From a virus, in the IMG/VR virus record IMGVR_UViG_3300030419_004548, positions 1 to 59,342 of that record: a stretch of DNA of 59,342 bases; one strand, given 5' to 3'. The notes under the pieces were generated by a model. The model was not told the DNA's origin, did not search any database, and saw only the letters and a list, made by a program, of their open reading frames with translations. Shown here one piece after another: positions 16,503 through 57,510 of this stretch. Position 1 is the stretch's first letter; each line of letters starts with the position of its first letter. The translations under genes and the position numbers were made by a program.

Positions 16503-16514
16503 CAAAGTCTCCTA

Positions 16515-18139: not shown

Positions 18140-18567
18140 AATATCGCATCCAATACTTCAGGTTCTATTTTTACGGGTTCGAGAAAGACTTGACCTCGTG
18201 ATGCTCTATCATAATAATATGTTCTGTAAATCCCATATTTCTTAATCAAAGCTCGTGTTCTTGAGTACACTTGAGGACTTCTTCCTTCAACTAAAATCTT
18301 TATAATATTATCTTTTTTATCTACTTCTTTTATAGTACCAATCTTTTCAAATAAATCTATCAATGCAGATTCAGAACGAATAGCAGGAACATTTCTTACA
18401 TCTAATTGGTATCCGTGTAGTAAGAGGTTCTTTGAATTAGGATGTTTCAATCTCTTTTCAAGTACAATAACACTTCGTTTTGTAGAACGACCATCACTAC
18501 CTTGATATCTGAAAGATACTATATCTCCTCTTTCAACTTTACCCCAACTATATGGTTGTCTTGCCAT
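18136..18567 (-). CDS. 143-aa conserved phage protein, SH3-like start
   Basis: A basic protein whose N-terminal half (VERGDIVSFRYQG, RSVIVLEKRL) looks like a small beta barrel and whose C-terminal half has a helix-rich RTRALIKKYGIYRTYYYDRA segment. I do not recognise a function; similar proteins occur in T4-like marine phages in my recollection. Its ATG overlaps the last 20 bases of the zinc-ribbon gene. Confidence 0.5.
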   Translation of the reverse strand: MARQPYSWGKVERGDIVSFRYQGSDGRSTKRSVIVLEKRLKHPNSKNLLLHGYQLDVRNVPAIRSESALIDLFEKIGTIKEVDKKDNIIKILVEGRSPQVYSRTRALIKKYGIYRTYYYDRASRGQVFLEPVKIEPEVLDAIL

Positions 18568-19027
18568 TTGATTTATCTACGTGTTGTGTTATTCCTAATG
18601 ATTTACAAGCATCAAGAAATTCATATTTACTAAATGATTCTGCACCATCGACATCAAGAAACGTTTCATAGTAACCACCATCAGGTTTAGGATAGTTCTT
18701 TCTTTGGTCTTTTGGTATCTCTTTTACTTTGGCAACTTTGTAGTACCATAACTCAGGTTCACCTTCAGGATAAATCATACCCATAGCTCCCATATTAATT
18801 AAAGAAGGATACCATTCTAATCCTCGTTCTCTGTCTTCTATTTTTAATTGTTTTACCAATGATGTATAATTTTGTGTCTCTTCATCACACTCATTTAATT
18901 TAAGTGCTGAGTTAGAAGTATAACCACAATCAAAACAAATATAAGATTCGAATCCTTCGTCCGTAACTTCTACAAAACAAGAATGATTATCACCATTGAA
19001 AGTAGGACAAGTTGTTTTCTTTTCCAT
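18548..19027 (-). CDS. zinc-ribbon hypothetical protein
   Basis: A 159-residue protein with an N-terminal zinc-ribbon: C7, C16, then C31-x2-C34 in YICFDCGY. The rest is an unrecognised alpha/beta domain (LEWYPSLINMGAMGMIYPEG). Such ribbon proteins are common as uncharacterised genes in T4-like marine phages. It may bind nucleic acid or the transcription machinery; no direct evidence. Confidence 0.55.
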   Translation of the reverse strand: MEKKTTCPTFNGDNHSCFVEVTDEGFESYICFDCGYTSNSALKLNECDEETQNYTSLVKQLKIEDRERGLEWYPSLINMGAMGMIYPEGEPELWYYKVAKVKEIPKDQRKNYPKPDGGYYETFLDVDGAESFSKYEFLDACKSLGITQHVDKSNGKTTI

Positions 19028-19030
19028 TTA

Positions 19031-20341
19031 CTATTTCACCTTTTTAAGTTTAGGTAATTTCACACTATTTTCTTTTTTCTGTAACTTGGGTAAATTAACT
19101 GCTACGTGTTCAGGTATGTTTTCTACGTAAGGTTTAATTATCTTAGCCAACTTTTCTGTCATACCGTTTAGTGTAAATTGTTCATTAGCAATCTTCTGAG
19201 CATATGATTTTGTTAACCACTTATCATAGTTAGTAAATATGTCTTTTAGAAAATGAGAACCTGCCGCAAAATCTACCTGAAACCATTGTGCACCTTCAAA
19301 CATATAATCTTTAGGTATAGAATCTTTATGCACATCAACTAAAGCTCCTGGCAACATAGCAGACATTTCTTTATCAAGAAAATCTACGTGACCTGAAAAA
19401 TTAGGTGCTATGATAGGTTTACCTGTAGTACTAAACTCTAATAAGGGTCTACCAAATCCTTCACCTTTAGTAAAACTAACCATAGATTTTATTTTAGGGT
19501 GATTATATAATTCATTCATTTGTGTATCAGACAACTCTCCGTGTAATAAATAAATAGAAGGAGCTTTCTTATACACACATTGTTCTTTTACTTCTTTAAT
19601 GCTGTTCATTAAATCATATTTGTCTATAGGACTATGTGTGCCTCTTGAAGTTTTCAATACTAATGCGGGTGCATTATCAGTATTCTTAAACGTTTCTATA
19701 AAAGTCTTGACTAAACTTGCAACATCTTTTCTATCGTGTCCAAATGGACCAGGTAACCAATGTCCTGTAAATAGATATGCAAAATCTTCTTTTATAGAAC
19801 CAAGTTCATTTGCTATGCTTTCACTATACTCATCCGTCTTCTTGTATATAGTTTCATCATATCCTTCAAATAAAACTTCGATAGGTTTACTACATTTAAT
19901 TGTACCTGCTTTGTTTCCCTTCTCATCTTTTTTATCAAATGAAGATGAACCCATAACCGTCTTAACAAATTCAGAAGGGACTATATTCAAGTCCATTCTA
20001 TTCATCGCATCTACCCAATTAGGATGAGGTAGTGTCCATTCAACTCCGGCAGTAACACCTATATTAACTTTACCAATATTTTGAAATTCAGTTGGTACAC
20101 TAACGTGAAAATGTATATCAGGCTGTCTTTCGATACGACCATCTATAGACAATGTTTCTATGATTCTTTTATCTCTTTCATCATCTGAATTAAGAGCATT
20201 TTGAGGAGTGTTGCCCCATCTGATAGGTAATGTCTTTACTTGGTAACCTAAATCTAAAAGTGAAATTACTATATCTCTTGCGTGTGAACCATAACCACTA
20301 CGAGTACCTACAGGTCCTATAACTGAAACTAATTTACTCAT
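19031..20341 (-). CDS. GT4-like (GT-B) glycosyltransferase
   Basis: A 436-residue GT-B enzyme. The N-terminus begins SVIGPVGTRSGYGSHARD (glycine-rich acceptor-side loop). The donor region near residues 285-320 has FTKGEGFGRPLLEFSTTGKPIIAP with the E-x7-E pattern of family 4. The C-terminal tail is lysine-rich and ends in KLPKLKKVK, sharing KLPKLKKV with the N-terminus of the neighbouring transferase. It follows that gene after one base, so the two are probably co-translated and may work together on one glycan. Confidence 0.85.
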   Translation of the reverse strand: MSKLVSVIGPVGTRSGYGSHARDIVISLLDLGYQVKTLPIRWGNTPQNALNSDDERDKRIIETLSIDGRIERQPDIHFHVSVPTEFQNIGKVNIGVTAGVEWTLPHPNWVDAMNRMDLNIVPSEFVKTVMGSSSFDKKDEKGNKAGTIKCSKPIEVLFEGYDETIYKKTDEYSESIANELGSIKEDFAYLFTGHWLPGPFGHDRKDVASLVKTFIETFKNTDNAPALVLKTSRGTHSPIDKYDLMNSIKEVKEQCVYKKAPSIYLLHGELSDTQMNELYNHPKIKSMVSFTKGEGFGRPLLEFSTTGKPIIAPNFSGHVDFLDKEMSAMLPGALVDVHKDSIPKDYMFEGAQWFQVDFAAGSHFLKDIFTNYDKWLTKSYAQKIANEQFTLNGMTEKLAKIIKPYVENIPEHVAVNLPKLQKKENSVKLPKLKKVK

Positions 20342-20342
20342 C

Positions 20343-21806
20343 TTAAACCTCGTATAACTGAAATTGTTTAATCGGCTTCCACTCTTTAAATGTAGTGTCT
20401 ATCGATTCTATAAAAGCTTTTCCCATATTCTTTGCTGATAAAGAAGTCTCAGGTAACAAACAATATTCTCTTCCTGCTTTACCTGCTTTCTGTCTGTATT
20501 CAGCTGAATGCTTATACCACTCATATAGTCTATCACCCGCATCTTCCCATTTAGGTCTGTCATCAAATATGTATGGTGTCTGTGGTGAACCTTGTAATGA
20601 ACGAGATGCAGGCCAAACAGGCTTTACCCATTCACCGTGTTCTGTATATCTACCATCGTGATTAGAACCCCACTCTTTTGTATAATCTTCTTTCATTAAA
20701 AGTGAACCATCTTCTTTTCTAAATCCACATTGGTCTTGCATTCCACCTGTAACGTTAACAACAATCGGTGTTCCTGCCATTAATGATTCTGCTGTACCAA
20801 GTCCGAATCCTTCATTAGATGCTATGTTAATTGTAACATCAGATATATTGTAAAGTATATTCATATCATCTTCATCTAATCTTTGTGGTATAAACATAAC
20901 TTCAGCGTTTGGACAATTATGTCTAACGACCTCTACTAAATCTGTACCGTTATTATCAACAGGTGCTGTTTTCATTATCAACAAACAATCTTTTCTTTCT
21001 TCGTCTGATAATTTATTTAACATATGTGCATATGCTAATACTACATCACCTGGCAGTTTTCTACGTATGTTTCTATTATTCCACAACACAACAAATTTAG
21101 TATTTTTATTTCTGATATTGTCGTCTTTCCATTTCATCATTTTATCATACGATTCTTTGTTTTTAGAATCAATAGGAAAGAATACTTTTTCATTAATACC
21201 ATGAGGTACAAGTGTATTCTGCCAATCTTTTACAGGAACATTCTTTCTAACGTTACGTACAATATTCCAAGTTTGTTTTGTTATGTTCATCAAACAATCT
21301 ACTGATTCATAGAAAGGTTCATTCCACATTGGATATGGTAAGTCATCCCAAATATTATAATAAAGAATTGGAATTCTTGAACGAATCTCGTGACTCATAT
21401 CAAACATAAATCTCCAAAATCTTGGGTCAGTATAAATTATTATAGCATCGGGATGATAATGATTCATCAGTTCTCTAACTAAAGTATCACTTCCGTATCC
21501 TGATATAGGATGTACAATTAGATTAGCATCTTCTACACCTGTTTTTGTTCTCAAGTCGTCAGAGCAATTAAATATTTGACCTTCTTCAGGATGTTTAATA
21601 GCACCACCTGCTTGTATCCAATCATACTTGTGACAAGTTTGTCTTATCATTTCTAAAGACATAACTCCTACACCTGATGCCATTCTACAATCATCAGAAA
21701 ATAATAATATCTTTTTCTTACCTGATGGACTCTTTCCTCTTAAATCAGATAACGGTTCTGCTTTAGCAGATACCTTTTTTAATTTAGGTAATTTTATATC
21801 AGCCAT
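20343..21806 (-). CDS. GT4-like (GT-B) glycosyltransferase with KLPKLKKV tail
   Basis: A 487-residue GT-B protein. After an N-terminal lysine-rich extension (residues 1-30, containing KLPKLKKV), the acceptor domain starts KILLFSDDCRMASGVGVMS. The donor domain has NIASNEGFGLGTAESLMAGTPIVV, the E-x7-E family 4 signature. A C-terminal segment of about 60 residues follows. Likely partner of the transferase immediately downstream. Overlaps the small upstream gene by 8 bases. Confidence 0.85.
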   Translation of the reverse strand: MADIKLPKLKKVSAKAEPLSDLRGKSPSGKKKILLFSDDCRMASGVGVMSLEMIRQTCHKYDWIQAGGAIKHPEEGQIFNCSDDLRTKTGVEDANLIVHPISGYGSDTLVRELMNHYHPDAIIIYTDPRFWRFMFDMSHEIRSRIPILYYNIWDDLPYPMWNEPFYESVDCLMNITKQTWNIVRNVRKNVPVKDWQNTLVPHGINEKVFFPIDSKNKESYDKMMKWKDDNIRNKNTKFVVLWNNRNIRRKLPGDVVLAYAHMLNKLSDEERKDCLLIMKTAPVDNNGTDLVEVVRHNCPNAEVMFIPQRLDEDDMNILYNISDVTINIASNEGFGLGTAESLMAGTPIVVNVTGGMQDQCGFRKEDGSLLMKEDYTKEWGSNHDGRYTEHGEWVKPVWPASRSLQGSPQTPYIFDDRPKWEDAGDRLYEWYKHSAEYRQKAGKAGREYCLLPETSLSAKNMGKAFIESIDTTFKEWKPIKQFQLYEV

Positions 21807-28530: not shown

Positions 28531-28806
28531 TTAATTTAATTGTCGTAAATATTCTAAAACTTCAAATTCTGTTTCTGTAGATGGAAACCCTGTAAATCCG
28601 TTTTCATCATTAATCATTACAAAAGGAAGTATTCCGATATCTTCTTTAAGTTCGTGTAAAGTGTCTTCTGCTTTCTGATACTCTTCGTTGTTTTCAGGTT
28701 GAGATATATCAATCGTTTTATATTCAAACTTATATCTTTCCATAAAAGAAACAGCATATTGACAATGCTTACAAGCTATCATTGAATTATAAAATATCTT
28801 AATCAA
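28531..28806 (-). CDS. glutaredoxin-like protein
   Basis: A 91-residue thioredoxin-fold protein with the redox motif C12-K-H-C15 and the cis-proline segment ILPFVMIND, followed by a TETEFEVLEYLRQL C-terminal helix. T4-like phages carry glutaredoxins to reduce ribonucleotide reductase; the B12-dependent reductase in this genome needs a thiol donor, so the match is plausible. Overlaps the polymerase stop. Confidence 0.85.
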   Translation of the reverse strand: MIKIFYNSMIACKHCQYAVSFMERYKFEYKTIDISQPENNEEYQKAEDTLHELKEDIGILPFVMINDENGFTGFPSTETEFEVLEYLRQLN

Positions 28807-31319
28807 AAGAACCTCTCTAATGTAAATTTTTTATCTACAGGTTTTGACCAACCCATTGCTTCATAAAACATCATAATTTTACGATGAAGATTTTTGTCGT
28901 ACATTTTATCGTAATCTATATAATCTCGAATGTATTGAAGAATTTCTTTTGGGTCTTCATAACCTTTGTATGCTAAACTTTCGATACCTAATGGATTCTT
29001 TGTGAGATAAACCCATTTGATTTTTTCAGCTGAACTTATATATAAATATTGCTTAGAAACCTCAAAATGTAATAATAAATCATTATAATTAACAGCAGAC
29101 TTAACGTGTACAGGTGCACCTGATTTGAAAGTAGTAAACTTGTCATCTTCTAATTTACGTTCTACGTATTTAGATAAATTCTTAACACCTGTAGGCATTG
29201 ATATACCATCTATAGGCATCGTATTCATAGAAGATTTAAACTTTAATATTCTTTCATCTATTTTTTCTTTAGGAACATTCGCAAGAACATCATCAAGTAC
29301 CTCTTTCAAAAGTTTACCACAAGCAGGTGGGAAGTTTGAACGTACCGTATCGATACCTTTAACTAACATCTTGTTCACTTCAACACCATTGTCATTAATA
29401 ATCTTCATACCATATCGTTTCTTTGCAATAAACAATCCTGATATACCTATCACTTCTTGTTTAATTTCAAATCTATGGTCTTCTATATTACAAAACTTCT
29501 GTGCAAAATAATCATAACTATTATTCAAATAATCTTGAAGTTCTGATGCGATACTAAGAATACGTTTAGTCATCATAGGTTTTGAATTTACATTCTCATT
29601 AGGATATCTATGTTTTACTAAAGGTAATGCTGATGCGAAGATTGAATCTGTATCAATATAAATCACGTGGTCATCATCTGTTCCCAATTCATTATTGTAA
29701 AAATGATTTGTAATCGTTCTACTAAACTTAATTAATGATTGACCGGTTAGTGTAGTAGCCTCTGCATTATCAATATCATAAAATCTAAATACAGATAGAC
29801 CAAGAACACCATACAAACTATTCAACATAATCTTTTGAATCAACTGCCTTCTATCAAAATATTCATAACGTTCTGTATTACCATCGTTACCAAACTTCTT
29901 TGCTAATTTTCTATACTCTACTCTTTCATCAAACCACTTTGAAAGTATAGCAGGAATCAACCCTGCTTTATCATTACGATATAAAACTCCATTTGCTGAT
30001 ATAGAAATTTTGTTGTCAGTAACATAACTTTTAAAGTCTTCATAATTCATTGATGCTACTTGAGTACCATTGTCATCTTTGATTATATAAGTTTTCTCAA
30101 CTTCACGAATGAAATCTTCAGGCTCCCACTCTTCTAATTTACCAAGTTTAGTTTCCGGACTAATATTCAAAGACATAATAACTGAAGGATACATAGATGT
30201 TACGTCTAAATCAAATACCCAATCGTGTTTACCTTTTTGAGGGTCAGCAACATATGCACCTGCAAACTGAAAGTCTTCTGCTACTTTAGGTTTAGGCTTT
30301 TTGTCAGGAGCTACAATTCCTAAATTTCTTAGATAAACTAATATAGCACCTTCAAGATATCGAGAGGATGTAAATACATTTTCATAAGGAACGTGGCCTG
30401 AGTGACATAACGCTTGTGTAATACTAATAAAATCTAATTTCTTATCAAGTTCATCTACAATTCTAACGTCTTGTACATTATATAAAACAAACTTTGTTCT
30501 ATCATTATCATATAAATCATTAAGTGTTCCATCATATTCTACTTTCTTTTCACCAAGTTCTTCTTCAGCAATAGCATCTAATCGATAACTTGACTTTTCT
30601 GTATATGTAAATTTTCTATACAAAAATAAATAATCTAAATGTGATACACCTGCTATCTTGTGTTTCTCTTTAAACGTAGACCATTGTACAACTCCTATAG
30701 GACTCAACATAGATGCTACTTTTTTACCTACAACTTTACAAGCACGATTATATAGATACGGAACATCAAACTTTTCTGTATTCCATCCTGATACGATAGT
30801 AGGATTTATCTCTTTCCATCTTGAAAGAAATCTTTGTAACATATCAAATTCTGTTTTGAAACGTTCTACTTTAAAATTATTTCTTAGTATGTCGGGATGA
30901 TTTAAATCAACTTTGTTGTCAGAGTCTAACACTAAACAATGATATGTACCATCTGTACAATCATTAAAACCTATAGATGTTATTTCATTAGGTGCTTCAT
31001 TAGGGTCAGGAAATCCTTCTGTTACCTTTACCTCAATATCAAAAAATAGTTTTCTATGATTTGTTGATACGTCATCAGAGTCTGCATATCTATCAACTAA
31101 CACACGAGTTTCTACAGGAACATCTGATTCAAATAGTCCTCGTTCTTTAGGGTCATACTCATATACCTTTGTTAGTTTGTCTCCAAATAACGAAGTGTAG
31201 TTACCTGTAGGAGACTTCTTATATGCATATGGTTTAAACTTGAAAGTTTCATAACCTTTTACATCATCCCAAAGATGAACTTTTTTAGTTTTTATATCGA
31301 AGTAAATATTTTGATACAT
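28803..31319 (-). CDS. 43: family B DNA polymerase (gp43-like)
   Basis: An 838-residue replicative polymerase. The 3'-5' exonuclease motif I is FFDIEVK (D94, E96), Exo II is SGWNTEKFDVPY, motif A is DVTSMYPSVI (D372), motif B is KIMLNSLYG (496-504) and motif C is YIDTDSI (D556, D558). All catalytic residues are present. Close in length to T4 gp43 (898). It starts one base before the dUTPase stop ends. It is the genome's complete replicative polymerase, in contrast to the family A-like protein at 44751-46022. Confidence 0.95.
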   Translation of the reverse strand: MYQNIYFDIKTKKVHLWDDVKGYETFKFKPYAYKKSPTGNYTSLFGDKLTKVYEYDPKERGLFESDVPVETRVLVDRYADSDDVSTNHRKLFFDIEVKVTEGFPDPNEAPNEITSIGFNDCTDGTYHCLVLDSDNKVDLNHPDILRNNFKVERFKTEFDMLQRFLSRWKEINPTIVSGWNTEKFDVPYLYNRACKVVGKKVASMLSPIGVVQWSTFKEKHKIAGVSHLDYLFLYRKFTYTEKSSYRLDAIAEEELGEKKVEYDGTLNDLYDNDRTKFVLYNVQDVRIVDELDKKLDFISITQALCHSGHVPYENVFTSSRYLEGAILVYLRNLGIVAPDKKPKPKVAEDFQFAGAYVADPQKGKHDWVFDLDVTSMYPSVIMSLNISPETKLGKLEEWEPEDFIREVEKTYIIKDDNGTQVASMNYEDFKSYVTDNKISISANGVLYRNDKAGLIPAILSKWFDERVEYRKLAKKFGNDGNTERYEYFDRRQLIQKIMLNSLYGVLGLSVFRFYDIDNAEATTLTGQSLIKFSRTITNHFYNNELGTDDDHVIYIDTDSIFASALPLVKHRYPNENVNSKPMMTKRILSIASELQDYLNNSYDYFAQKFCNIEDHRFEIKQEVIGISGLFIAKKRYGMKIINDNGVEVNKMLVKGIDTVRSNFPPACGKLLKEVLDDVLANVPKEKIDERILKFKSSMNTMPIDGISMPTGVKNLSKYVERKLEDDKFTTFKSGAPVHVKSAVNYNDLLLHFEVSKQYLYISSAEKIKWVYLTKNPLGIESLAYKGYEDPKEILQYIRDYIDYDKMYDKNLHRKIMMFYEAMGWSKPVDKKFTLERFF

Positions 31320-31837
31320 TAAATACCTGTAGAGCCAAATCCACCTGAACCACGTTCAGAGTCAGATAAATTATCAACAATTTCTAATTTGATTTCTCCT
31401 AACATTGGAGATACAACTTGAAATAATCTTGTATGTTTTTCAATTATAAACTCTTCATCTGATAAATTATCAATAGGAACCATAAACTCTCCACGATAAC
31501 CTGAATCCATAATTCCAACACTATTAGACATTCTCAAAGGAGTTTTTGATATTGAAGAACGTGGTGTGACCATATAAGATATATTCGTATCTTGTATAGA
31601 ACCTCCAAACATATTTTCTATCATCTCTTTAGGTATATTATCTGTTAAATGATTTGAAACTACTTGTACCATTTCTCCTTTAATTCCTAACGGAACAATC
31701 ATTCCTAATTCTTTTGCAGGTATAGTTACTTCTTCAGGAAAATATAAATCAACTCCTGCATCACCTTCTACATTGACTCTCTTTTTATATAGAGATTTCA
31801 ATGATTCATCTAAGATTTCTATTCTTAGTGTATTCAT
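31319..31837 (-). CDS. dut: dUTPase
   Basis: A 172-residue trimeric-type dUTP pyrophosphatase. The five motifs can be followed: DAGVDLY, PRSSISKTPL, NSVGIMDSGYRGE, a hydrophobic RLFQVV region, and C-terminal RGSGGFGSTGI. It hydrolyses dUTP to dUMP, limiting uracil in DNA and supplying dTMP synthesis. An insertion of about 25 residues lies between motifs 1 and 2. The start has a GAGGGAG ribosome binding site and a promoter-like sequence 27 nt upstream. Confidence 0.95.
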   Translation of the reverse strand: MNTLRIEILDESLKSLYKKRVNVEGDAGVDLYFPEEVTIPAKELGMIVPLGIKGEMVQVVSNHLTDNIPKEMIENMFGGSIQDTNISYMVTPRSSISKTPLRMSNSVGIMDSGYRGEFMVPIDNLSDEEFIIEKHTRLFQVVSPMLGEIKLEIVDNLSDSERGSGGFGSTGI

Positions 31838-31864: not shown

Positions 31865-31893
31865 AGTTACGAAAAAAACCTTTAAAGGTCAAG
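31865..31893 (-). promoter_or_regulatory. promoter-like TTGACC-N17-TAACTT with palindrome
   Basis: Minus-strand -35 TTGACC (31893-31888), 17-base spacer, -10-like TAACTT (31870-31865), ending 27 nt before the dUTPase start. A perfect 12-bp palindrome ACCTTTAAAGGT (31879-31890) overlaps the -35 end and spacer and could be an operator. It lies just after the receptor's terminator, so it would restart transcription for the replication run. The -10 is weak for sigma70. Confidence 0.45.
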
Positions 31894-31912
31894 CACTTTT
31901 TTGAAATAAATG

Positions 31913-31932
31913 GGGGGAAATTAATCCCCCCG
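31913..31932 (-). terminator. intrinsic terminator after TonB-dependent receptor
   Basis: A GGGGGG/CCCCCC stem (7 bp with the next A-T pair) and a 6-base loop begin 11 bases after the receptor stop codon. Minus strand continues ATTTATTTC, and the plus strand also has a T-rich run, so it could act in both directions. It is the most GC-rich hairpin seen in the window and isolates the receptor gene from the dUTPase run. Confidence 0.75.
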
Positions 31933-31942
31933 ATTTATTATT

Positions 31943-34672
31943 TTAGAAATTGACCGATAGGCCAAGGTTGAAGCTTCTTGGAGTTCCAAGAAAGACTTCA
32001 GCATTATGAGCTAAGTGCATTTTATCACCATACCCATTATACTTTGAGTTATCAACTGCGTCTTGGATGTAAACATCATCAAGTGCGTTGAATAGATGAC
32101 CATGTAAAGTCATATCAAGTCCTGCAATTTCAGGTAATTTATAAGATAGATGTAAGTCTAACTTACCATAAGATGGAGTTTTCCATACTTGCGCTCTATC
32201 TGCATCACCGTCTACTTCACGACTATCAGGACTCCAATCAGCATAGTGATTGTCATACCATCTGTAAAGTCCTTGAACACTTAGACCTTCAATAGGCTTT
32301 AGTGTAAGACCACCAACATATGATGTCTGTGGCATATCACCGACTTTAAGATTATTAAGAGCATATTCATACTCTGTAGATGTTTGACCAATGATTTGAT
32401 TATCATCATTGTATTCCATCTCTGTATAATCACCATTGGCATCGCCATCGAAATACCAATCACCGACACTTACAGCAATATCTAAATCAACCATTTCGTG
32501 AAGGGCTACTTTAGATTCAATCTCTACACCTGAGTGTGATTGATTTACACCTGTAAGATAAATGATGTCAGTATCACCTGAGTCACCTTGTCCTGTAGTA
32601 ACAGACTTAGTAAGGTTTCTATCCTTCCATTGTGTGTTATAGTAACTACCTTTGATAGCAACTAAACCACTTTTATATTCACCGCCAATTTCCATTGATG
32701 TGAATTTTTCGTTGTCAGGATTTGTAGATACGTTACCATCATAATCAATAACGTTATCTAAGATTGGTGGTTTCTGTACATATCCAAGATTAGCAAATGC
32801 TGATAGTCTATCATCAAGATTATATCTACCACCACCTTTAACTTGGAATGTTGTGATGTTGTCAGCAGTAACTTTAGAAGCATCAACTGCAAAATGGTCT
32901 AAGTAAGAATATCCAATAGTAGATATACCACCCATACCATAAAGACTAAACTTCTCAACATCATACTTACCTTGTAAGAAAGCACCGAACCAATCAACCG
33001 TTGTTTCGTTGTGATATGCGATAATGTCACCTAAACGAACCACTTTACCATCAGCGGCATTATCATCAGCGTAGTCTACATAGTAGTCTCCACCAAGTAA
33101 ATCACGAACTTCACGCGCGTGTTCTATACCAGCAGTTCTCCAATCAATACCGACTTGAACTTCAAGTGCATCTGAAACATCATAGTTTAATTTAGAAATC
33201 AAACCATAAGTGTTTTGTCTATTGATTGAATTACGAAGGATACCTGTTGAACGATTTTCAACATCAGACCAAGCAGAATCTACATTAGCAGAGTTCTGTT
33301 CAATCTCAGCATTCCAATCCCAAGTCCAAGGCGAACTTGCATACCAAGCATTTCCTTCTATCGCGGGTTGTCTACTTACGCTACCATAAGTTCCTGTTCC
33401 TCCACCTGAACCACCTGACCAATACAGAACAGAACTTAACCTCATTTGGTCATTCAAATCATAAAAATGATTTAAGTTGACAAGAGGCTTGTGAAAAAAG
33501 TTCTCTCTTTCATTTAGAAAGTTAGAACTATATCTATCGGTTGTACGCGCTCCGTACATATACCAATATTGTTGACCTTTATATGAAGGGTCAACGGGTG
33601 CCACGTTTTGATTGAAGAATCTACCTGCTTCGTGTTCAAACTTTTCGCCTGAAACATAAGCAGAGTCATTATACCCATCAATACTACCTGCTAACTCTTG
33701 TGAGTAAGTGGCAATATTTTGTTTGTATAGATTCTGTCCGTGACGTTGTGGTGCACCGATTGCATACAACTCAAAACGTTGGTCATCACTTACAGCATAA
33801 CTCGCTCCCGCGTAATATGCCCAAGCATCTGTCCAAGTTCCATCAATGAATCCGTCACCTGTTTTACGAACTATAGTTCCACTCAAAGCTAACTTATCTT
33901 TGATAAGACCTGAGTTATAGTTCAGAGTGGTTTTAAGAAATCCACCCTCACCAACTTCCTGCTTTAACTTACCGCCCTTCTCTTGAGCCGCAGGGTCAGT
34001 TATTATGTTCATAGTTCCACCAATTGATGGTGTTGCGAGATTCACGGCTGATAGACCTCTTTGCATCTGAATTGAAGAAGTAGCATCTCCTACTCCATCC
34101 CAATTAGACCAATAGACCCATCCGTTCTCCATATCATTCTGAGGAACTCCGTTTATCATCACAGCAACATTTCTTTGGTTAAAACCACGTACATTGATAC
34201 GAGCATCACCCGCACCACCACCTTGTTGAGTTGCATATACTGAAGGTGTAGTGTTAAGAATCATTGGAATGTCTTGAGAACCTAATCTCACTTCCATCTC
34301 TTCTTTACTAACATTCGTATAAGCAACAGGTGTTGTTTCATCAGCACGTGAAGCCAAGACTTCTAATGCTGATAGTGCTACAACGTCAGCTACTAAATTG
34401 AAGCTAACTGAAGCAACTATATCGCCTACCTCCACGCTTTGGGTTTGGGCGATGTACCCGATGTACGATGCAGTAATATCAAAAGTACCTGAACCGGTTT
34501 CGATAACAAATTTACCAGCGTCATCACTAACGCCACCAAGTTCAGTTCCTTCAACAACTACATTCGCTCCAACGAGTGGACCATCTTCAGTACCAACATA
34601 TCCTGTAACAGCTTGTCCGAAAACAAGACTAAAAGACATTGCTAATACTGAGATTAGATTACGATAATTCAT
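31943..34672 (-). CDS. TonB-dependent outer-membrane receptor
   Basis: Start at ATG 34672 with AGGAG 7-8 bases upstream; the frame is open to 34708. The 909-residue protein has a signal peptide (residues 1-19/20, ending VFGQ), a CarboxypepD-regulatory-like domain at about 21-95 (GYVGTEDGPLVGANVVVEGT), a plug domain at about 115-235 (INVRGFNQRNVAVMINGVP) and a 22-strand barrel ending in a terminal Phe (LGLSVNF), the signal for outer-membrane assembly. It imports a ligand with TonB energy in bacteria. Its GC is higher than the surrounding genes (28/60 in 33961-34020 versus 15/60 in 6001-6060). It has its own terminator, so it looks like a host-derived moron. Confidence 0.93.
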   Translation of the reverse strand: MNYRNLISVLAMSFSLVFGQAVTGYVGTEDGPLVGANVVVEGTELGGVSDDAGKFVIETGSGTFDITASYIGYIAQTQSVEVGDIVASVSFNLVADVVALSALEVLASRADETTPVAYTNVSKEEMEVRLGSQDIPMILNTTPSVYATQQGGGAGDARINVRGFNQRNVAVMINGVPQNDMENGWVYWSNWDGVGDATSSIQMQRGLSAVNLATPSIGGTMNIITDPAAQEKGGKLKQEVGEGGFLKTTLNYNSGLIKDKLALSGTIVRKTGDGFIDGTWTDAWAYYAGASYAVSDDQRFELYAIGAPQRHGQNLYKQNIATYSQELAGSIDGYNDSAYVSGEKFEHEAGRFFNQNVAPVDPSYKGQQYWYMYGARTTDRYSSNFLNERENFFHKPLVNLNHFYDLNDQMRLSSVLYWSGGSGGGTGTYGSVSRQPAIEGNAWYASSPWTWDWNAEIEQNSANVDSAWSDVENRSTGILRNSINRQNTYGLISKLNYDVSDALEVQVGIDWRTAGIEHAREVRDLLGGDYYVDYADDNAADGKVVRLGDIIAYHNETTVDWFGAFLQGKYDVEKFSLYGMGGISTIGYSYLDHFAVDASKVTADNITTFQVKGGGRYNLDDRLSAFANLGYVQKPPILDNVIDYDGNVSTNPDNEKFTSMEIGGEYKSGLVAIKGSYYNTQWKDRNLTKSVTTGQGDSGDTDIIYLTGVNQSHSGVEIESKVALHEMVDLDIAVSVGDWYFDGDANGDYTEMEYNDDNQIIGQTSTEYEYALNNLKVGDMPQTSYVGGLTLKPIEGLSVQGLYRWYDNHYADWSPDSREVDGDADRAQVWKTPSYGKLDLHLSYKLPEIAGLDMTLHGHLFNALDDVYIQDAVDNSKYNGYGDKMHLAHNAEVFLGTPRSFNLGLSVNF

Positions 34673-34748
34673 AATCATTCTCCTATTGTTGTGTTTGAAC
34701 ATTGACACATTTTTCTACAGGTGTGTCGTCTGCCTGTCCGCTTTTGTG

Positions 34749-36758
34749 TTAATTTGCATAATCCTGGTCATCATTGTCACCTGTCATCGGTATAATTTCA
34801 CACGAATCATTATTACAGAATTTATCTACTTCTGCTTCTTCGTGTTTAATCACACCAAATGTCAGACGACCAAGTTTTGAAACCTGTTTCTGATAAGTCT
34901 TCTCATCAATAGCTTCGTAAGGCATCTGTGGATAAGCACCATAATCGTGTCTTGGCAACAGACTTATTCCTTTTAAGTGATATTGATAATAATTCAATGC
35001 GGGTGCAATCTGTTCTGATTCAATTTCAGGATTGAACGTTACCGTACAACTAACTTGATTATCAGCCCAATGTCTTTGCATAAATGCCGCTAAACTAAAT
35101 TGTTCCCATATTGAAAGTTCTCCTGCAGTTCTGATGCCTTCTCCTACATCTACAGGAACTTCTACAACCATTGTTGTGTCTTCAGAACCAAACGCAGGTT
35201 CTACTTTATATCCTGCTTTTTTCATTGGTTCTAATAAATCTGAATGTTTTGAAACTCTAATTCTTCTAATATAAAATCTTGATTCAGGATAATGGAGACC
35301 AGGTGTCGCACCTGCTAATAGAGATACCGTTCCACTTGGTTTAACTGATGTTGTTTTTATAGAACGAGGAACAGCCATCCAATCTGAATATTGTTTATCC
35401 CAATCTTGAATAACATCGTATCCATCATTCAACCATTTTTTCAATTCACCTAATCCACGATTAGTAATGAACTGAGCAACACCACTAACACTACAACCAA
35501 TTCTTCTGTTTCTTAACATCACTCTATTTGTATCACTCCAATGAGTTCTACCTAACGTAACCGTCTTAGCATAAAGATACGCATATTTAAGAGTACGTGC
35601 ATAATCTTCAAAACTTTCGTGATTCTCAGGAAACGTTTCTACTAAACAGCATAACTCGTAAGACTCAAGCGTCTGCTCTAAACAAGGGTTGCCTCCCATA
35701 GCTCTGTGGTCTTTGTTGTCTCCCCCATTTTTCATTCTTGAGTACTTTCTCATATTGTCCAACCAAGCAAATCCTGGTTCTCCATTATCATTTATTCTCT
35801 TCGCGGCCTCTGAATAATCCATTCCTAACTCAGCAAATATACTATTGTTAGATGTCCAACCATATTGGTCACGATGAGGATTGACTTTATAATTTTTTAA
35901 ATCTAAATATTCTTCATTATCAGGTTCACCAAATACAATCTCTGCAGTTCTTCTTACATTACCCGCTACAACACATTTACCAATTAGATTCATTATGTCT
36001 ACGATTGTTGTTATTGTGATTGGTTCTCCACTATTCTTTTCAAGTACTTTTCTAATGTCTTCGTGTACTTCTAATAATGGTTCGTGACCACTTGCTACAC
36101 CACCAAATCCACTGATAGGTTCACCTGCAGGTCTTATCTTTGTATAGTCAAACTCAACAGGTGCTTGTCCGTGAAAGTAACTCTCTAATAATAGTTTCAT
36201 TGATTCTACCCAACCTTCTCTTGTATCGGGTATCTCATAAACTTGTTCTTCTCTATCTTTTTCTATACCTTTAACTATTATTTCTCCTGCACCTTTTGTA
36301 TCAAAACCAACACCAACACCTAACATACTCGCATCCATTAAGAAACAGAATGGCTTAGCATAATCTTCTTTAAGTGTTTTTGTTGATACAAAGGCACAAT
36401 TATTTAGGGCGGCATATAATCCTTTTTCTTCTGTGATTGGTGTACCCATAGCCCACAGACCGCGTCCAGGAGGCAAAAACTTCATTTGAAATATACGCTC
36501 ATACATATCTTGAGCAGACTTTTGAGCTTGCCACGCATTCCACCCTAATTGGTGTGATTCAATCCAATTCTTTTGCATATTGTAAGTTCCCTCTACAACA
36601 CGTTGAACCGTCTCCCACCATCGTTCATTCTTCCCATCTGCTTTAATTCGTGAGTAGGTTCTCATATAAACTAATTCTCCCAATCCATTAAAACCAAAAG
36701 GTGCTTTTTTCCGTTTATAACCATTAATAAAATTATCTGAGAGTTTAAATTTTTCCAT
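34749..36758 (-). CDS. nrdJ: adenosylcobalamin-dependent ribonucleotide reductase (class II)
   Basis: A 669-residue monomeric class II reductase of the RtpR type. The redox pair cysteine C121 lies in ALNNCAFVS; the radical site has C359 and E361 (NPCLEQ); C370 in ELCCLVE is the partner; C648 and C653 form the C-terminal shuttle pair. It reduces ribonucleotides to deoxyribonucleotides and uses vitamin B12 coenzyme, which must come from the host. Complete by length. An AAGGA ribosome binding site precedes the start. Confidence 0.93.
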   Translation of the reverse strand: MEKFKLSDNFINGYKRKKAPFGFNGLGELVYMRTYSRIKADGKNERWWETVQRVVEGTYNMQKNWIESHQLGWNAWQAQKSAQDMYERIFQMKFLPPGRGLWAMGTPITEEKGLYAALNNCAFVSTKTLKEDYAKPFCFLMDASMLGVGVGFDTKGAGEIIVKGIEKDREEQVYEIPDTREGWVESMKLLLESYFHGQAPVEFDYTKIRPAGEPISGFGGVASGHEPLLEVHEDIRKVLEKNSGEPITITTIVDIMNLIGKCVVAGNVRRTAEIVFGEPDNEEYLDLKNYKVNPHRDQYGWTSNNSIFAELGMDYSEAAKRINDNGEPGFAWLDNMRKYSRMKNGGDNKDHRAMGGNPCLEQTLESYELCCLVETFPENHESFEDYARTLKYAYLYAKTVTLGRTHWSDTNRVMLRNRRIGCSVSGVAQFITNRGLGELKKWLNDGYDVIQDWDKQYSDWMAVPRSIKTTSVKPSGTVSLLAGATPGLHYPESRFYIRRIRVSKHSDLLEPMKKAGYKVEPAFGSEDTTMVVEVPVDVGEGIRTAGELSIWEQFSLAAFMQRHWADNQVSCTVTFNPEIESEQIAPALNYYQYHLKGISLLPRHDYGAYPQMPYEAIDEKTYQKQVSKLGRLTFGVIKHEEAEVDKFCNNDSCEIIPMTGDNDDQDYAN

Positions 36759-42272: not shown

Positions 42273-42671
42273 TTATTTTTCTAAATCGATGATTTCTTTT
42301 AGTCTTGTGTGTATAATGTTTAAACCATCTTTGTTTGTTAATAAAATAGAATTACGATAGTTATCCCATTGTAATCTGTATGATTTATCTAAGATTCCGT
42401 TGTTAGCATCTTTAATAATATGATTAACTGCATTGATTGTATACAATGTATTTGTCTCTTTTTTTCTATGTAAAAGAATTGTATTAGGAAGAAATCCGGA
42501 TACTTCAGATTTCAACACATTGTATGTCACCATTAATTCATTAGGGTTATCTATTTTCTGTAGAACATATAATTTCTTCATAGAAAGAGGTGCAGAATCT
42601 TTAATAAGTAGAACCATTTCGGTAAGTTCTTTCTTGTTAGAGAAAGTGCAAAGTAGTTGTGAATCTATCAT
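42273..42671 (-). CDS. 132-aa hypothetical protein
   Basis: A small soluble alpha/beta protein (SMKKLYVLQKIDNPNELMVTYNVL). No family recognised; I recall similar NPNELMxTYNV segments in uncharacterised proteins of marine T4-like phages. It is coupled by one base to the 697-residue gene and ends before the gp32 leader, so it is the last gene of the structural-side run. Confidence 0.5.
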   Translation of the reverse strand: MIDSQLLCTFSNKKELTEMVLLIKDSAPLSMKKLYVLQKIDNPNELMVTYNVLKSEVSGFLPNTILLHRKKETNTLYTINAVNHIIKDANNGILDKSYRLQWDNYRNSILLTNKDGLNIIHTRLKEIIDLEK

Positions 42672-44764
42672 TACTTAGGTTCTTTATACTTTAATGCTGT
42701 ATTTGCTTTTTGATATTTTGCTCTTGATACGTGAGTAGTTCCATCATCACATTTGTCTTTTGATTCATTATCAGGCACTCCTTGATAACCTTTATCGTGT
42801 ATTTGCATATTAGATGTTTTATGCTCGCCTTCTTTTTCTTCTACTACAAGGTCTCCGTTAACATTTCTAACTTCAGCATATGTAACACCTAATTCTAAAT
42901 CAAGTTCATTCAAAGTCTTTTTTGTTTTTTCTTGTGCATACATTCTAAATACTTTTTCCATCAACGCTTTAGCATATACTTTTGGTTCTGCGGGTTCTAA
43001 ACCAACCGAATCCATATACTTTTCCATACTCTTCTTTATTTTTTCTACTGCCTTAGGACCATCTGTTACTTTAGATAGTATTTTTTCTGCTTCTGCATAT
43101 AATTCATCCCAAGTTGCACCATCATCACATACTTTATCTAATTTATCTATTTCAGCTAAATCAGCTTGTGTTTCTTCATCAAGATTTTCTCTCTTAACTC
43201 TTGATATTTCACCACGATGTAAATTTTCTATATTGTCAAATTTGTCTTTATGTTCAGGATACACATTTGCAAAATGTTTACAAAATTCAGAAGCTGAAGA
43301 ACCTGGTATATTAGTTCCTTTAGTAGCTGATTTTACACTTACAGAATTTATAGATATTACTTTTCCTGAACCATCACGTTCTAATACTAACACATCAGCT
43401 ATTGGAAAGTTTCCTGATGCTGGCATATATGCTTCTTTCTTTTGACATCTATATTTTAACAAGACCGTTACTTCTGCAAAATCTTTTAAAACAGATGCTT
43501 GTTCTTTAGGGTCAAGTTTACCTGCTTCATCATACATTTCTTTTTGTATTTTACCTAATTCACTCTCAAGTTTAGCTAATTTTTCATCCTCACTTAAACT
43601 ATCATCTTCAAGTATATCCATAACTCGTTTATGTGCTTTTTCAATATACTTCTGTGAAGACTCATCAGCTCGACTTCTTGATGTTTCAAGTATTTCATCC
43701 ATAACAGATTTAACAGAATCTACAAAATCTTTAGAATTTGGTGGTGGGTTATTTGGGTCTCCTATTGGACCGCCTAACATCTCGTCTTCGTCTTTCATCC
43801 CACTTTCGGTTAAAATATTTTTTACTCCAGGTGGTAAGTCTGAAACTTTACTTCTCGATTTTATTATTTGATTAGGTTTAAAGTTTGAGTTTTTATGTCC
43901 TGTCATAGCTGATGCGGGTGGGTTATCCATCTTACCTAATGGTGATTTAAATTTAGGTGGAGTCAAACCCTGCTCTTCCATCTTTTCTTTTAGTTTTGGC
44001 CATCTCTCATAAAAACTATTTTTGTCATTAACTCGTCCTTGATAAGCGCCTGAATCCTTATATTTTTTTATACCGGGAACAATAGATACTCCTGCAGAAG
44101 TATCAGTACGTTCTCCAAAAAATATTTGACCTGAATCAGTATTAGAACTTATTGTTAGAAATTGAAGATTATTTTTGTCTGCTTCAGTAAATTCAACATC
44201 TTGACCATTAGCTAATAATTGTAGTTTTCCAAATAATCTTCTCGCTACAGCTTCTCTTTGTTTCTTTTCACCAAAATCAGGAGGGTCTAATTTAACATTA
44301 CCCTCTTCATTATTAGCCGCATCTTCATATGCTTCCATGCCTTCTTCAGAAATTTCTAACTTATAAGGTTCTTTATCTTTTGGTTCATCTTTTGGTTCAT
44401 CTTTTGGTTCATCTGTTGGCTGTTCTCCATCTCTACTAAAGTCAGTAACTTTATCACTTTTCTTCTTCTCAACATCATCACCATCAATAGCTACATAGTT
44501 ATCACCATCTTTTTTATATTTTTTTGCGTTGTCATTATCTTTATCAGAAGTTTTGACATATATTCCACGACCTTTGTGAGTATACTCTTTTTCTTCTTTT
44601 TCTCCAATAAATCTTTCAGATAATTCTATAACATCAGAGTGTGGAAATCCTATAGATAGTAAATAATCGTATAACGCTTCTCTATCTTCTTTTATACTGA
44701 AATCAGGATATCCTTTATCATATAACCAAGATATGTTGGTAAGCAGTTTATCAAATGAGTTCAT
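42671..44764 (-). CDS. large acidic protein with DEPK repeats, possible nuclease-like core
   Basis: A 697-residue very acidic protein. Residues about 115-135 contain DEPK units from a 12-bp tandem repeat. A central segment has PIADVLVLERDG followed 11 residues later by SVSVKSA, a spacing reminiscent of PD-(D/E)XK nucleases, though with Ser in place of the usual Glu/Asp. Much of the rest is charged coil. It overlaps the family A polymerase-like gene by 14 bases. Function unknown; a DNA-handling or scaffold role is possible. Confidence 0.5.
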   Translation of the reverse strand: MNSFDKLLTNISWLYDKGYPDFSIKEDREALYDYLLSIGFPHSDVIELSERFIGEKEEKEYTHKGRGIYVKTSDKDNDNAKKYKKDGDNYVAIDGDDVEKKKSDKVTDFSRDGEQPTDEPKDEPKDEPKDKEPYKLEISEEGMEAYEDAANNEEGNVKLDPPDFGEKKQREAVARRLFGKLQLLANGQDVEFTEADKNNLQFLTISSNTDSGQIFFGERTDTSAGVSIVPGIKKYKDSGAYQGRVNDKNSFYERWPKLKEKMEEQGLTPPKFKSPLGKMDNPPASAMTGHKNSNFKPNQIIKSRSKVSDLPPGVKNILTESGMKDEDEMLGGPIGDPNNPPPNSKDFVDSVKSVMDEILETSRSRADESSQKYIEKAHKRVMDILEDDSLSEDEKLAKLESELGKIQKEMYDEAGKLDPKEQASVLKDFAEVTVLLKYRCQKKEAYMPASGNFPIADVLVLERDGSGKVISINSVSVKSATKGTNIPGSSASEFCKHFANVYPEHKDKFDNIENLHRGEISRVKRENLDEETQADLAEIDKLDKVCDDGATWDELYAEAEKILSKVTDGPKAVEKIKKSMEKYMDSVGLEPAEPKVYAKALMEKVFRMYAQEKTKKTLNELDLELGVTYAEVRNVNGDLVVEEKEGEHKTSNMQIHDKGYQGVPDNESKDKCDDGTTHVSRAKYQKANTALKYKEPK
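44378..44413. repeat. 12-bp tandem repeat, three exact copies
   Basis: TTTTGGTTCATC is repeated three times without gap (44378-44389, 44390-44401, 44402-44413), with partial copies flanking. It encodes (DEPK)n on the minus strand. The copies are identical at DNA level, so the repeat number probably varies between related genomes. Confidence 0.85.
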
Positions 44765-46022
44765 CGTAGTTCTTACCTCTTTTCATCTTGACAGGGAATC
44801 CATCTCTCTGTAACTCTTTTTGGACAATTTCAACAAATTTATCTCCATCGTTTTTATTGTAATCAAACAAAAAACTATCATAATGATATAATACTAATTT
44901 ACTTTCAAAGTCTTTTGTTGCGTTCAACAAACTTTTTAATATCAATATATTTCGTTCTGTTTCTAAACTTTGTATCATATAATTAAAAAGTTTTGAAGGA
45001 TAAAAGTCTTTTACATCTAACGTTATTCTTCTTTTATAAATATCAGTTACTAAAACTTTATCTCTGTTAAAACGTGACCATAAATTAGTATAATAATCTT
45101 TAACTTTACCAAAAAATTCGTGTGTTTTAGCTATATCATCAGGAACACCACCATATAAATACTTAAAAGTCATAGACTTTGAATCTTCATAAGATACATT
45201 ATATAGTTTACTGAAATGTTCGTGTACACTTTCATCACCAAAATCATATCCAATAATCTTACCAATTAATCTTACGTGATATGCATCAAAGTCAAATTCA
45301 ATTAATTCATCGTATCTACTCCTTATCATTTTACGTGAACCATCACTTTTATTTAAAGCCGCAAAGTTAATTCCATCATAAGCATTACTCGGTCTACCTG
45401 TAGGAGTCAATACATTATAATTAGTAAACATCAAATGTTCTTTTGATATATTATCTGATTGTCCAATTGGAACATATAAAGGAGTTACACGTAAACCTGC
45501 TCTTTCAACCTCTGCAAATACTTCATTCGCATCACGATAAAAATCATTATATTCATTTCCTATATTTTCTTTATAGTTCGTGAATAAATCTTGGCAATAC
45601 TCTAAATGTTTCATTAATGGAATAACATAGTTATTCATTCCTTTAGAATGAAAATATCTATGTGGTGTAGTTAAGAATATTTGATTATCAACTAAATTTC
45701 CTTGTTTCTGAAACTCTGCTTGTTGTAAATCAATTACATTACTAAAGTTAGCAAAGTGACAAACTGCTTTAATATCTGCTACATATTTAGGAATGTCATT
45801 ATCTAAATGTAATAAACAATCTAAAGTAAGTTCAGGAGCTTCATCGTGATTAAATGATAACACATACTCACTATCTTTAGATGTCCGTACGTATAGCATC
45901 AACGGATAATCGTTTAATGGATGTTTATTTTTACTTCCTATGAAATGTAAGAACACCCAATCAGAAGAACGATATTCTTCCACAAAGTCTTCAAATTGGT
46001 TGTACTTCTCTATTATAACCAC
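44751..46022 (-). CDS. family A DNA polymerase-like protein with altered motifs
   Basis: A 423-residue PolA-fold protein. T208-G-R210 matches the TGR motif; motif A EFDFDAYHVRL keeps the first Asp (D244, E. coli D705), but E710 is H249. Motif B has K282, F286, Y290 and G291 (E. coli K758, F762, Y766, G767), but R754 is Y278. N347 and Q351 match N845 and Q849. Motif C is Y381-D382-S383 (E. coli H-D-E). Both catalytic aspartates remain. The N-terminal 150 residues look like a decayed 3'-5' exonuclease domain without D-x-E. GTG start, five bases after a strong -10. Activity unknown. Confidence 0.75.
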   Translation of the reverse strand: MVIIEKYNQFEDFVEEYRSSDWVFLHFIGSKNKHPLNDYPLMLYVRTSKDSEYVLSFNHDEAPELTLDCLLHLDNDIPKYVADIKAVCHFANFSNVIDLQQAEFQKQGNLVDNQIFLTTPHRYFHSKGMNNYVIPLMKHLEYCQDLFTNYKENIGNEYNDFYRDANEVFAEVERAGLRVTPLYVPIGQSDNISKEHLMFTNYNVLTPTGRPSNAYDGINFAALNKSDGSRKMIRSRYDELIEFDFDAYHVRLIGKIIGYDFGDESVHEHFSKLYNVSYEDSKSMTFKYLYGGVPDDIAKTHEFFGKVKDYYTNLWSRFNRDKVLVTDIYKRRITLDVKDFYPSKLFNYMIQSLETERNILILKSLLNATKDFESKLVLYHYDSFLFDYNKNDGDKFVEIVQKELQRDGFPVKMKRGKNYDELI

Positions 46023-46027
46023 GTGTT

Positions 46028-46056
46028 AATATATAACCTTTTATTGATAATGTCAA
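46028..46056 (-). promoter_or_regulatory. sigma70-like promoter TTGACA-N17-TATATT
   Basis: Minus-strand -35 TTGACA (46056-46051) is perfect, the spacer is 17 bases, and the -10 is TATATT (46033-46028). It is the best promoter match in the window. The GTG start of the polymerase-like gene begins only five bases after the -10, so transcription would start at about the start codon (leaderless), or translation starts elsewhere. Confidence 0.6.
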
Positions 46057-46064
46057 GTGTTTTT

Positions 46065-46886
46065 TTAGTAGCCTCCGCCACCTCCGCCTGAGCCACCGCC
46101 TCCTGCACCATACTTAGCTAATCCTTTTTTGTTAATTTTCATCTTACCAATACCGCCTCCTTTTTTAGGACCTTTCATTTTAAACTTACCAGGTCCTTCA
46201 TCCAAACTCATCTTTACAGGCGGTGTCATAGCTTCAGGATTAAATACAATATTTCCTTGTTCATCTTGTGGTATTTCTGCTATACCCAATCTTCTTTTAA
46301 TATCTAATTGAGTACTAATTTCAGGTATTCTTGCATACTCATACGGATTAGATAAAAGTCTCGCAACTTTAGGATTACGACTTTGTAATCCTAATATAAT
46401 TAAACTATTTTGTCTATATATTTTTTTGAAAGAGCCACGTATATACCATTTTGTAGTTATCACACGATATAAAGGACTTGAAAACTTAGCGTTTACTTCT
46501 ACAACAGGTTCTGATTCATCATTTAATTTTTGTGCAAAATATCGAGTAAATTGTCCGTTAACGTAATCCGCAGTTTTTGGTACTCCACGAATCATTTTTG
46601 GTTTAAGTAAATCATATTTTTTACCTCTATTTTCTGCGTATCTTTCATAATCTCCTTTATTATTAGATATAGGTCTTATTATTCTTGAAGTAATTTGATG
46701 TTTCGCACCTGTCATATAAACTTCTTTAAAATCTGTAGTATAGTGTATATGATAAGCTGTTCCTTTCTTTACAGGTGTGCTATTTGACTTATATAGAAAA
46801 GACGAATTATCAGGCACTATTCCTGCGTCAGTAACTATTCTTACCGTCTTACTATGTACATCTCTTATTTCATCATAATCTATCAT
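46065..46886 (-). CDS. structural-region protein with glycine-rich C-terminus
   Basis: A 273-residue protein. The first 200 residues are a mixed alpha/beta domain (VRIVTDAGIVPDNSSFLYKS); the last 30 are glycine-rich (YGAGGGGSGGGGGGY) after a lysine-rich linker. Glycine-rich ends are common in phage tail and fibre proteins. It lies directly downstream of the large baseplate gene, so a baseplate or tail role is likely. Unrecognised family. Confidence 0.5.
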   Translation of the reverse strand: MIDYDEIRDVHSKTVRIVTDAGIVPDNSSFLYKSNSTPVKKGTAYHIHYTTDFKEVYMTGAKHQITSRIIRPISNNKGDYERYAENRGKKYDLLKPKMIRGVPKTADYVNGQFTRYFAQKLNDESEPVVEVNAKFSSPLYRVITTKWYIRGSFKKIYRQNSLIILGLQSRNPKVARLLSNPYEYARIPEISTQLDIKRRLGIAEIPQDEQGNIVFNPEAMTPPVKMSLDEGPGKFKMKGPKKGGGIGKMKINKKGLAKYGAGGGGSGGGGGGY

Positions 46887-51769: not shown

Positions 51770-52068
51770 TATCTTTTCCTATTTAGGTCATTAAACTCTG
51801 ATAGTATTGGTGAAATATTTATCGGTATTCTATATGTTTTTGAAGGGTCTAATTGTATCTCTGCTCCTGAAAGATTGTTTGCTTTAGATATAATCCACCA
51901 AAGTGTTTGGTCTCCGTAATATTGGTCAGCTAATGTATCTAATCGTTGTCCGCGAGTGACTGCAATAAATTTATCTGAATCTTGTAAAGGTATCGTTGGA
52001 TAAAAAGTAGTTCCAAAAACTCTATTACCTTCTCTATCGATTATTACTTTTGTATTCTTGTATCTCAT
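51769..52068 (-). CDS. LysM-like baseplate wedge protein (gp53-like)
   Basis: A 99-residue protein containing a LysM-like motif: RGQRLDTLADQYYGDQTLWWIISKANN, listed here as RLDTLADQYYG and TLWWIISKANN. T4 gp53 has the same YGNxxLYW pattern, and tail protein X and other LysM baseplate proteins use it to bind other proteins. It would be a wedge or hub connector. Flanked directly by the two large baseplate genes. Confidence 0.72.
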   Translation of the reverse strand: MRYKNTKVIIDREGNRVFGTTFYPTIPLQDSDKFIAVTRGQRLDTLADQYYGDQTLWWIISKANNLSGAEIQLDPSKTYRIPINISPILSEFNDLNRKR

Positions 52069-52073
52069 ATTAT

Positions 52074-57468: not shown

Positions 57469-57490
57469 AGAGATTCTCCGTTAAGACTCG

Positions 57491-57500: not shown

Positions 57501-57510
57501 TCAAGTTACC

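Follow-up and report, generated by a model that had tools for sequence, protein, structure and literature searches.

A probable Marinimicrobia-derived TonB-dependent receptor gene in phages, and the RNA pseudoknot leader that accompanies it

The subject of this analysis is a gene for a TonB-dependent receptor (TBDR), together with the RNA leader that precedes it, in a viral stretch of 59,342 nucleotides (nt) (IMG/VR record IMGVR_UViG_3300030419_004548, hereafter the window). The gene occupies positions 31943..34672 of the minus strand, from an ATG at 34672 to a stop at 31943, and encodes 909 amino acids (aa); an earlier note had rightly seen a complete gene here but had drawn it as 31865-34708, a span that also covered the terminator and some of the leader. 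Starting instead from an in-frame GTG at 34708 would lengthen the protein by 12 residues; the ATG is preferred because it suits the Shine-Dalgarno motif AGGAG (34680..34684, minus strand), which was read from the sequence and the start-site profile of related leaders. The full-length receptor that had been described, with plug, regulatory-like domain, barrel and terminal Phe, is borne out by Pfam, a structure model and direct reading: CarbopepD_reg_2 (residues 22-100) and Plug (112-220) both score above their curated cut-offs (Plug at 53.4 bits versus 23.9), the N-terminus, read without a signal-peptide program, is hydrophobic and signal-peptide-like, the C-terminal residue is Phe, and the predicted barrel is of the TonB-dependent transporter (TBDT) type, with a mean predicted local distance difference test score (pLDDT) of 70.8, values below 50 in the plug and strands assigned by eye. 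A terminator-like stem lies 3' of the gene (31912..31931, minus strand), in keeping with the terminator of its own that had been attributed to it.

Within the 76-nt gap upstream of the receptor lies an H-type RNA pseudoknot (34704..34737, minus strand), in which stem S1 pairs ACAGG (34737-34733) with CCTGT (34721-34717), stem S2 pairs GACACA (34727-34722) with TGTGTC (34709-34704), and an A-rich loop spans 34716-34710; the earlier note recorded the receptor and overlooked this leader. A candidate hairpin (34656..34680, minus strand; e.g., GATTA/TAATC), proposed from arm matching within versus between sequences, would enclose the start codon. The gap is bounded by a class II (B12-dependent) ribonucleotide reductase (RNR2; 34749..36758), the usual upstream neighbor of TBDR, and on the other side follow a dUTPase (31319..31837) and DNA polymerase B (PolB; 28803..31319), the far border of a variable slot, all on the minus strand. 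The neighbors named earlier are thus confirmed in the window, although the dUTPase adjoins the receptor only in the nearest relatives. The surrounding replication set, which we label T4-like, includes a DnaB-like helicase, a UvsX-like recombinase, a gp32-like protein, a 5'-3' exonuclease and a clamp loader.

The receptor recurs widely. Six peptide words retrieved 346 IMG/VR stretches, 341 of which encode a TBDR relative, the best 80 of the 341 being 75-93% identical to the window protein; annotated phage records gave 13 matches, all below 60% identity, two of which (MT837399 and MT837128, human faecal phage records that lack annotation) cover 99-100% of the receptor at 29-30% identity. Among bacterial genomes, 59 loci hold relatives, 52 of them titled Marinimicrobia or Neomarinimicrobiota; two contigs titled 'Flavobacteriales' (L082) and 'Euryarchaeota' (L127) have the gene order of these phages and are probably misbinned virus. 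An assembly join is ruled out, since relatives are encoded in 341 IMG/VR stretches and many viral contigs share the junction between RNR2 and TBDR (86 of 113 distinct RNR2 junctions); synteny across these contigs supports the view that the gene is phage-encoded. It had been called an unusual phage gene, a remark that fails within this phage group, where TBDR is not rare.

What is new at the locus is its leader. A generic pseudoknot scan of both strands returned the element in the RNR2-TBDR gap as its single match in the window, and the same scan of 20 Markov windows returned none. Across 81 distinct leaders (one further locus, L061, was removed from the covariation set as a likely chance match), 97.1% of cells pair, cells with double changes number 61 versus 11.5 in shuffled data, and the covariation score is 0.235 versus 0.106, with none of 500 shuffles as high in either case. 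In 19 of the 81 sequences the outermost pair of S1 does not form. All measures collapse when the pairing partner is slid, although a structure drawn from the same sequences tends to beat its slid versions. Among the unpaired residues, the C and A that follow S1 and a run of five As in loop three are invariant in 81/81; L048, outside this set, has four As in that loop. The distance from the 3' end of the pseudoknot to the AUG ranges from 24 to 39 nt, with a median of 29 (125 leaders). No Rfam family reaches its gathering score in the window, the four matches near the leader (E 1.9 to 7.9) all lying far below theirs.

The pseudoknot is tied to TBDR and absent where PolB directly follows RNR2. 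Where the end of RNR2 could be read (169 loci, several belonging to the same contig), the element was called in 131 of 132 with TBDR next and in 0 of 11 with PolB next; the loose scan used here also counted chance pseudoknots at L033, L039, L047, L073, L160, L169 and L179, where TBDR is not next, and closer reading located the true elements, of which L160 has none. Under a strict pattern, the 113 distinct junctions divide likewise: the motif occurs in 82 of 86 with TBDR next, in 7 of 7 with an insert first, in 0 of 6 with PolB next, in 2 of 5 with another gene and then PolB (L192 and L195), and in 6 of the 9 without a readable next gene. As for the four TBDR-next junctions that fail the strict pattern, L024 and L079 do have the motif, L048 has the 4-nt loop and the form at L183 is decayed. 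Scanning viral contigs for the pattern gave at least 119 stretches; among the 115 examined, 99 are followed by TBDR, 3 are scars and the other 13 are too short, and RNR2 precedes the pattern in 103, 7 being too short and 5 showing no RNR2 (a looser leader pattern also matched by chance within coding sequence, at L043, L057, L120 and L276). The three scars (L352, L365 and L378) repeat the sequences of L192, L195 and L199 and add no further cases; there the pseudoknot, Shine-Dalgarno motif and first codons are kept, followed by a scar in place of TBDR. That the pseudoknot is the 3' end of RNR2 is ruled out, since it stays beside TBDR in 9/9 loci with an inserted gene. On the cellular side, the motif was not found in 57 loci, 48 of which hold more than 150 nt upstream of the receptor frame, nor in any of 8 host genomes.

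A second, less firmly established hairpin may enclose the TBDR start codon in the phages only. In 126 distinct leaders, the bases before the start pair with approximately codons 3-6, scoring 11.83 versus 10.80 in permuted data (standard deviation 0.15; 0/500 as high), although the set may include a few chance matches and the statistics ignore relatedness. No such excess was found in five other phage genes (100 permutations each) or at 34 host receptor starts (9.03 versus 9.52 permuted). The hairpin is held less firmly because kinship is ignored and because the AUG lies wholly within the loop in only 57 of the 126 predicted folds.

Phylogeny and composition argue for a host origin of the receptor, as the earlier note had proposed. 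In a FastTree tree of 120 rows, in which copies more than 97% identical were merged, 72 viral rows and one row from a metagenome-assembled genome (L083) form one group within the Marinimicrobia receptors, with a support of 98; an IQ-TREE analysis of 54 rows recovers the same viral group with an SH-aLRT of 96, a value taken from the re-rooted tree, on which labels may have moved. The Marinimicrobia rows of our alignment (A1) are 55-69% identical to the window TBDR. The G+C content of TBDR (0.393; 0.252 at third codon positions) exceeds that of the window (about 0.32), as had been noted from sampled lines, and exceeds that of its own contig in all 125 viral loci (mean 0.386 versus 0.344), whereas host copies average 0.426 against 0.415 for their contigs and lie above them in 25 of 45. 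This excess fits a host origin; it gives no date of transfer, because TBDR is old in these phages, and the suggestion of a recently acquired moron is contradicted by viral copies that diverge down to 62.8% identity. Several separate captures were likewise rejected: copies at 49-51% identity are partial pieces at contig ends, and the trees give one viral clade. A single, long-past capture from Marinimicrobia is part of the explanation that we prefer. The Marinimicrobia contig L083 carries two tandem receptor genes (986-4266), the second cut off, and the first falls in the viral clade and lacks the pseudoknot; a return transfer from phage to host, or a donor lineage, is possible.

Marinimicrobia are common marine bacteria, most of them uncultured, and to our knowledge little is known of their phages; the phages described here probably infect them. 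Each of the 8 host genomes has one close TBDR orthologue among 6 to 17 matches, except that G004 has two, one on a 10.9-kb contig, and TonB_C is found in 8/8. The gene most often adjoining the host receptor is an SRAP protein (18 of 57 host loci).

Conservation of the viral receptor bears on what it does. In 900 random pairs from 90 loci, some of which are the same contig (400 pairs for UvsX and 476 for PolB), mean pairwise identity is 78% for TBDR, 85% for RNR2, 75% for UvsX, 63% for DnaB and 57% for PolB. The median ratio of nonsynonymous to synonymous substitution (dN/dS) is 0.136 for TBDR (471 pairs past the saturation filter), 0.082 for RNR2 (220) and 0.072 for DnaB (82), so that TBDR, with less total change than DnaB or PolB, nonetheless has a higher dN/dS than RNR2 and DnaB. 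These values point to purifying selection, and they tell heavily against a useless passenger gene held by a hot recombination site: although the slot holds other genes and is often empty, as a passenger would allow, the low dN/dS, an identity above that of DnaB and PolB, and an RNA leader co-maintained with compensatory changes make this extremely unlikely.

Between 19 viral and 32 host sequences (the divergent or odd L083, L098, L128 and second L122 copies being left out), identity is 90.8% in the plug, 65.7% in the strands, 61.3% in the extracellular loops and 42.1% in the N-terminal domain, with approximate loop borders taken from the secondary structure of the model. The segment SALEVLASRADE, which on our own reading would be the TonB box, lies in a region of 83.7% virus-host identity. 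Because the plug and TonB box region are near-identical to those of the host, real transport is favored among the functions raised earlier (nutrient uptake, receptor replacement and masking), although the alternatives are not separable for certain. Were the host orthologue an entry receptor, the phage copy could displace, dilute or mask it, thereby replacing the receptor or excluding superinfection. Phages can use TBDRs as receptors (the structural matches include FhuA with T5 pb5), only one of the several receptors of the host was captured, and repeated gain or loss would suit a contest gene; yet the viral loops do not appear specially remodeled, virus-host identity there (61.3%) matching host-host identity (61.6%), and one of the only 2 columns diagnostic for virus versus host at 80% lies in a loop. 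The conserved plug would, moreover, be unneeded in a mere mask, and the gene sits among replication genes in a slot also used by a metabolic gene. We therefore regard exclusion as an unlikely account.

The reading that we prefer, and consider somewhat better than an even prospect, is of a host-derived uptake gene whose translation is under phage-specific RNA control, by which import is kept open during infection. It is based on the single clade, the low dN/dS, the host-like plug and TonB box, the presence of TonB_C in all 8 hosts and the covarying, phage-only leader, as well as on the occurrence of glutamine synthetase in the same slot of some relatives. Under this proposal, a phage copy of one Marinimicrobia outer-membrane receptor, retained between RNR2 and PolB, would be exported, inserted in the outer membrane and energized by host TonB, so that one limiting nutrient could still be imported while the phage drains host pools for nucleotide and DNA synthesis. 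The pseudoknot and start hairpin would control the timing or amount of TBDR translation via a ligand or phage protein. More tentatively, and with the balance of our judgment against it, the two may constitute a regulatory RNA of a new phage class, perhaps a riboswitch, which would respond to the nutrient state of the infected cell or to a phage protein and set the level of the captured receptor.

As to which nutrient would be imported, sequence comparison with the Protein Data Bank and fold comparison indicate no specific ligand, the fold matches being generic (Fiu, PqqU/YncD and FhuA; siderophore, pyrroloquinoline quinone and copper receptors). The earlier note had guessed that cobalamin might be taken up for the neighboring reductase, and TBDR does directly follow RNR2 in most distinct junctions (86/113). 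In each of 8 host genomes, however, the one cobalamin riboswitch lies at another locus and never at the phage-type TBDR orthologue (0/8). The gene downstream of it is TBDR-like in 6 and lipoprotein-like in 2; the 6 all run off the end of their stretch, and of these, three were Pfam-scanned (L261 and L264 match Plug, and L259 matches only CarbopepD_reg_2, below the cut-off), the other three being classed by their N-terminal residues; one lipoprotein-like gene has a below-cut-off DUF5074 match while the other has none. Rfam searches of 7 host loci that surround the orthologue gave tRNAs and nothing else, the window, as stated, gave nothing at gathering score, and other phages keep RNR2 without TBDR. 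The riboswitch placement speaks against B12 as the regulated ligand, and cobalamin import for the phage reductase appears improbable. Iron uptake is the commonest role of receptors with this fold, and import of a siderophore or haem during infection would be a special case of the preferred reading, not its competitor. The best fold matches are mostly iron-siderophore receptors, and a UPF0014 membrane protein, which we take to be of the FetB kind, lies within 5 kb of the host TBDR in 5 of 57 loci (L088, L095, L100, L101 and L105), three of them Pfam-confirmed (L088:5495-6295, L100:5990-6715 and L101:6337-7062). These neighbors give a weak hint of iron; nevertheless, the UPF0014 gene is non-adjacent in all five and absent from most loci (34 of 57 hold more than 5 kb upstream), and with fold matches so generic, iron specifically seems rather unlikely.

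Several observations weigh against captured, RNA-controlled import. Transport by TBDR and its expression are predictions; the plug is modeled poorly (pLDDT below 50), so that the ligand is not readable from it, and among the 50 structure matches listed, TM-scores by query length are 0.42-0.50 and the classes generic. Host gene context points to no substrate, because none of the 7 host loci read has a transport operon adjoining TBDR, although at L122 a second receptor is its neighbor. The Marinimicrobia host is itself deduced from TBDR and glutamine synthetase only, and a search of the 8 host genomes for the phage RNR2, without a positive control, found no match. For the leader, two of five covariation measures do not go beyond shuffles: pairs changed on both sides (6 of 11 versus 4.1 shuffled; 32/500 as high) and further pair types (10 versus 9.2; 170/500). 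Finally, at least six gains or losses of TBDR are needed on the RNR2 tree (81 rows, 71 with and 10 without TBDR), which shows that TBDR is dispensable in some of these phages.

Across the phages, the RNR2-PolB slot holds TBDR, glutamine synthetase, both, a 483-aa protein, or nothing. Glutamine synthetase was seen in sequence at L021 (6561-7547), L179, L215, L244, L250 and L251 and judged from length and place at L022, L073, L169 and L197; the L021 copy, the only one identified by Pfam, shares 54-57% identity with the copies found in 7 of the 8 host genomes, and we read the gene as a second metabolic insert, which may serve nitrogen assimilation. The 483-aa protein occurs at L192 (8222-9673) and L010, with or without TBDR, and its L192 copy has no Pfam match. 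At L170, a scar retains apparent last codons of TBDR together with a terminator stem similar to that of the window, and at L047 (2789-6284) a 316-aa open reading frame splits RNR2, perhaps as an intron or homing element. Elsewhere in the window, a long gene run (3730-21806) resembles sugar or glycan enzymes by eye, from the N-termini. No PHROG match was found for 8 scanned proteins of 42671-59027, and Pfam on 7 proteins of that region gave only a below-cut-off methyltransferase match (57511-58116); large proteins of 1627, 1079 and 654 aa at 46886-57277 are among those without a PHROG match, the first two also lacking a Pfam match.

A widespread phage receptor, chosen as one among 6 to 17 host matches, suggests an import route that matters in infection, and the pseudoknot that accompanies it is a compact RNA element, open to direct experiment, whose ligand or binding protein could reveal the imported substrate. 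As expected of a phage auxiliary metabolic gene of host origin, TBDR nests within host orthologues and is under purifying selection. The chromosomal Marinimicrobia (Fidelibacterota) orthologue, with a plug about 91% identical, differs in that the pseudoknot was not found and the start-hairpin excess is absent. The human faecal receptors of MT837399 and MT837128 share a full-length likeness but come from another habitat and are only distantly related.

One clear report of a phage-encoded TonB receptor was found in the literature searched. A TBDR (SusC-like) of the marine megaphage Mar_Mega_1 and of LR745206 has been proposed as an auxiliary metabolic gene (PMC9723777); theirs, likewise a phage-encoded TonB-dependent receptor, belongs to very large phages, that of LR745206 resembles the window protein across 20% of its length, at 28%, and the accessible text describes no fixed site, host clade or RNA leader. 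For a Lentisphaerae phage, ExbB is reported and not a receptor (PMC11361711), and PMC7785012 proved to hold no receptor, the match to 'SusC' being only to the word 'susceptible'. Among structured RNAs, the manA, wcaG and PhotoRC-II motifs of marine cyanophages are linked to host-metabolism genes (PMC2864571); they resemble the present element as structured marine-phage RNAs, but the motifs and genes differ, and the window element has no Rfam match. The gene 32 translational operator of T4 and RB69, which in T4-type phages forms a pseudoknot (about 28 nt) upstream of the ribosome-binding site, controls gp32 itself and has a long unstructured UUAAA/UAAA stretch (PMC535899), whereas the window pseudoknot precedes a receptor, at about 29 nt from its start, in a short leader with a candidate start hairpin; the element was not found in the AU-rich leader of the window's gp32-like gene. 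No earlier report of this TBDR family or pseudoknot was found in the literature searched, most subscription papers lying outside its reach.

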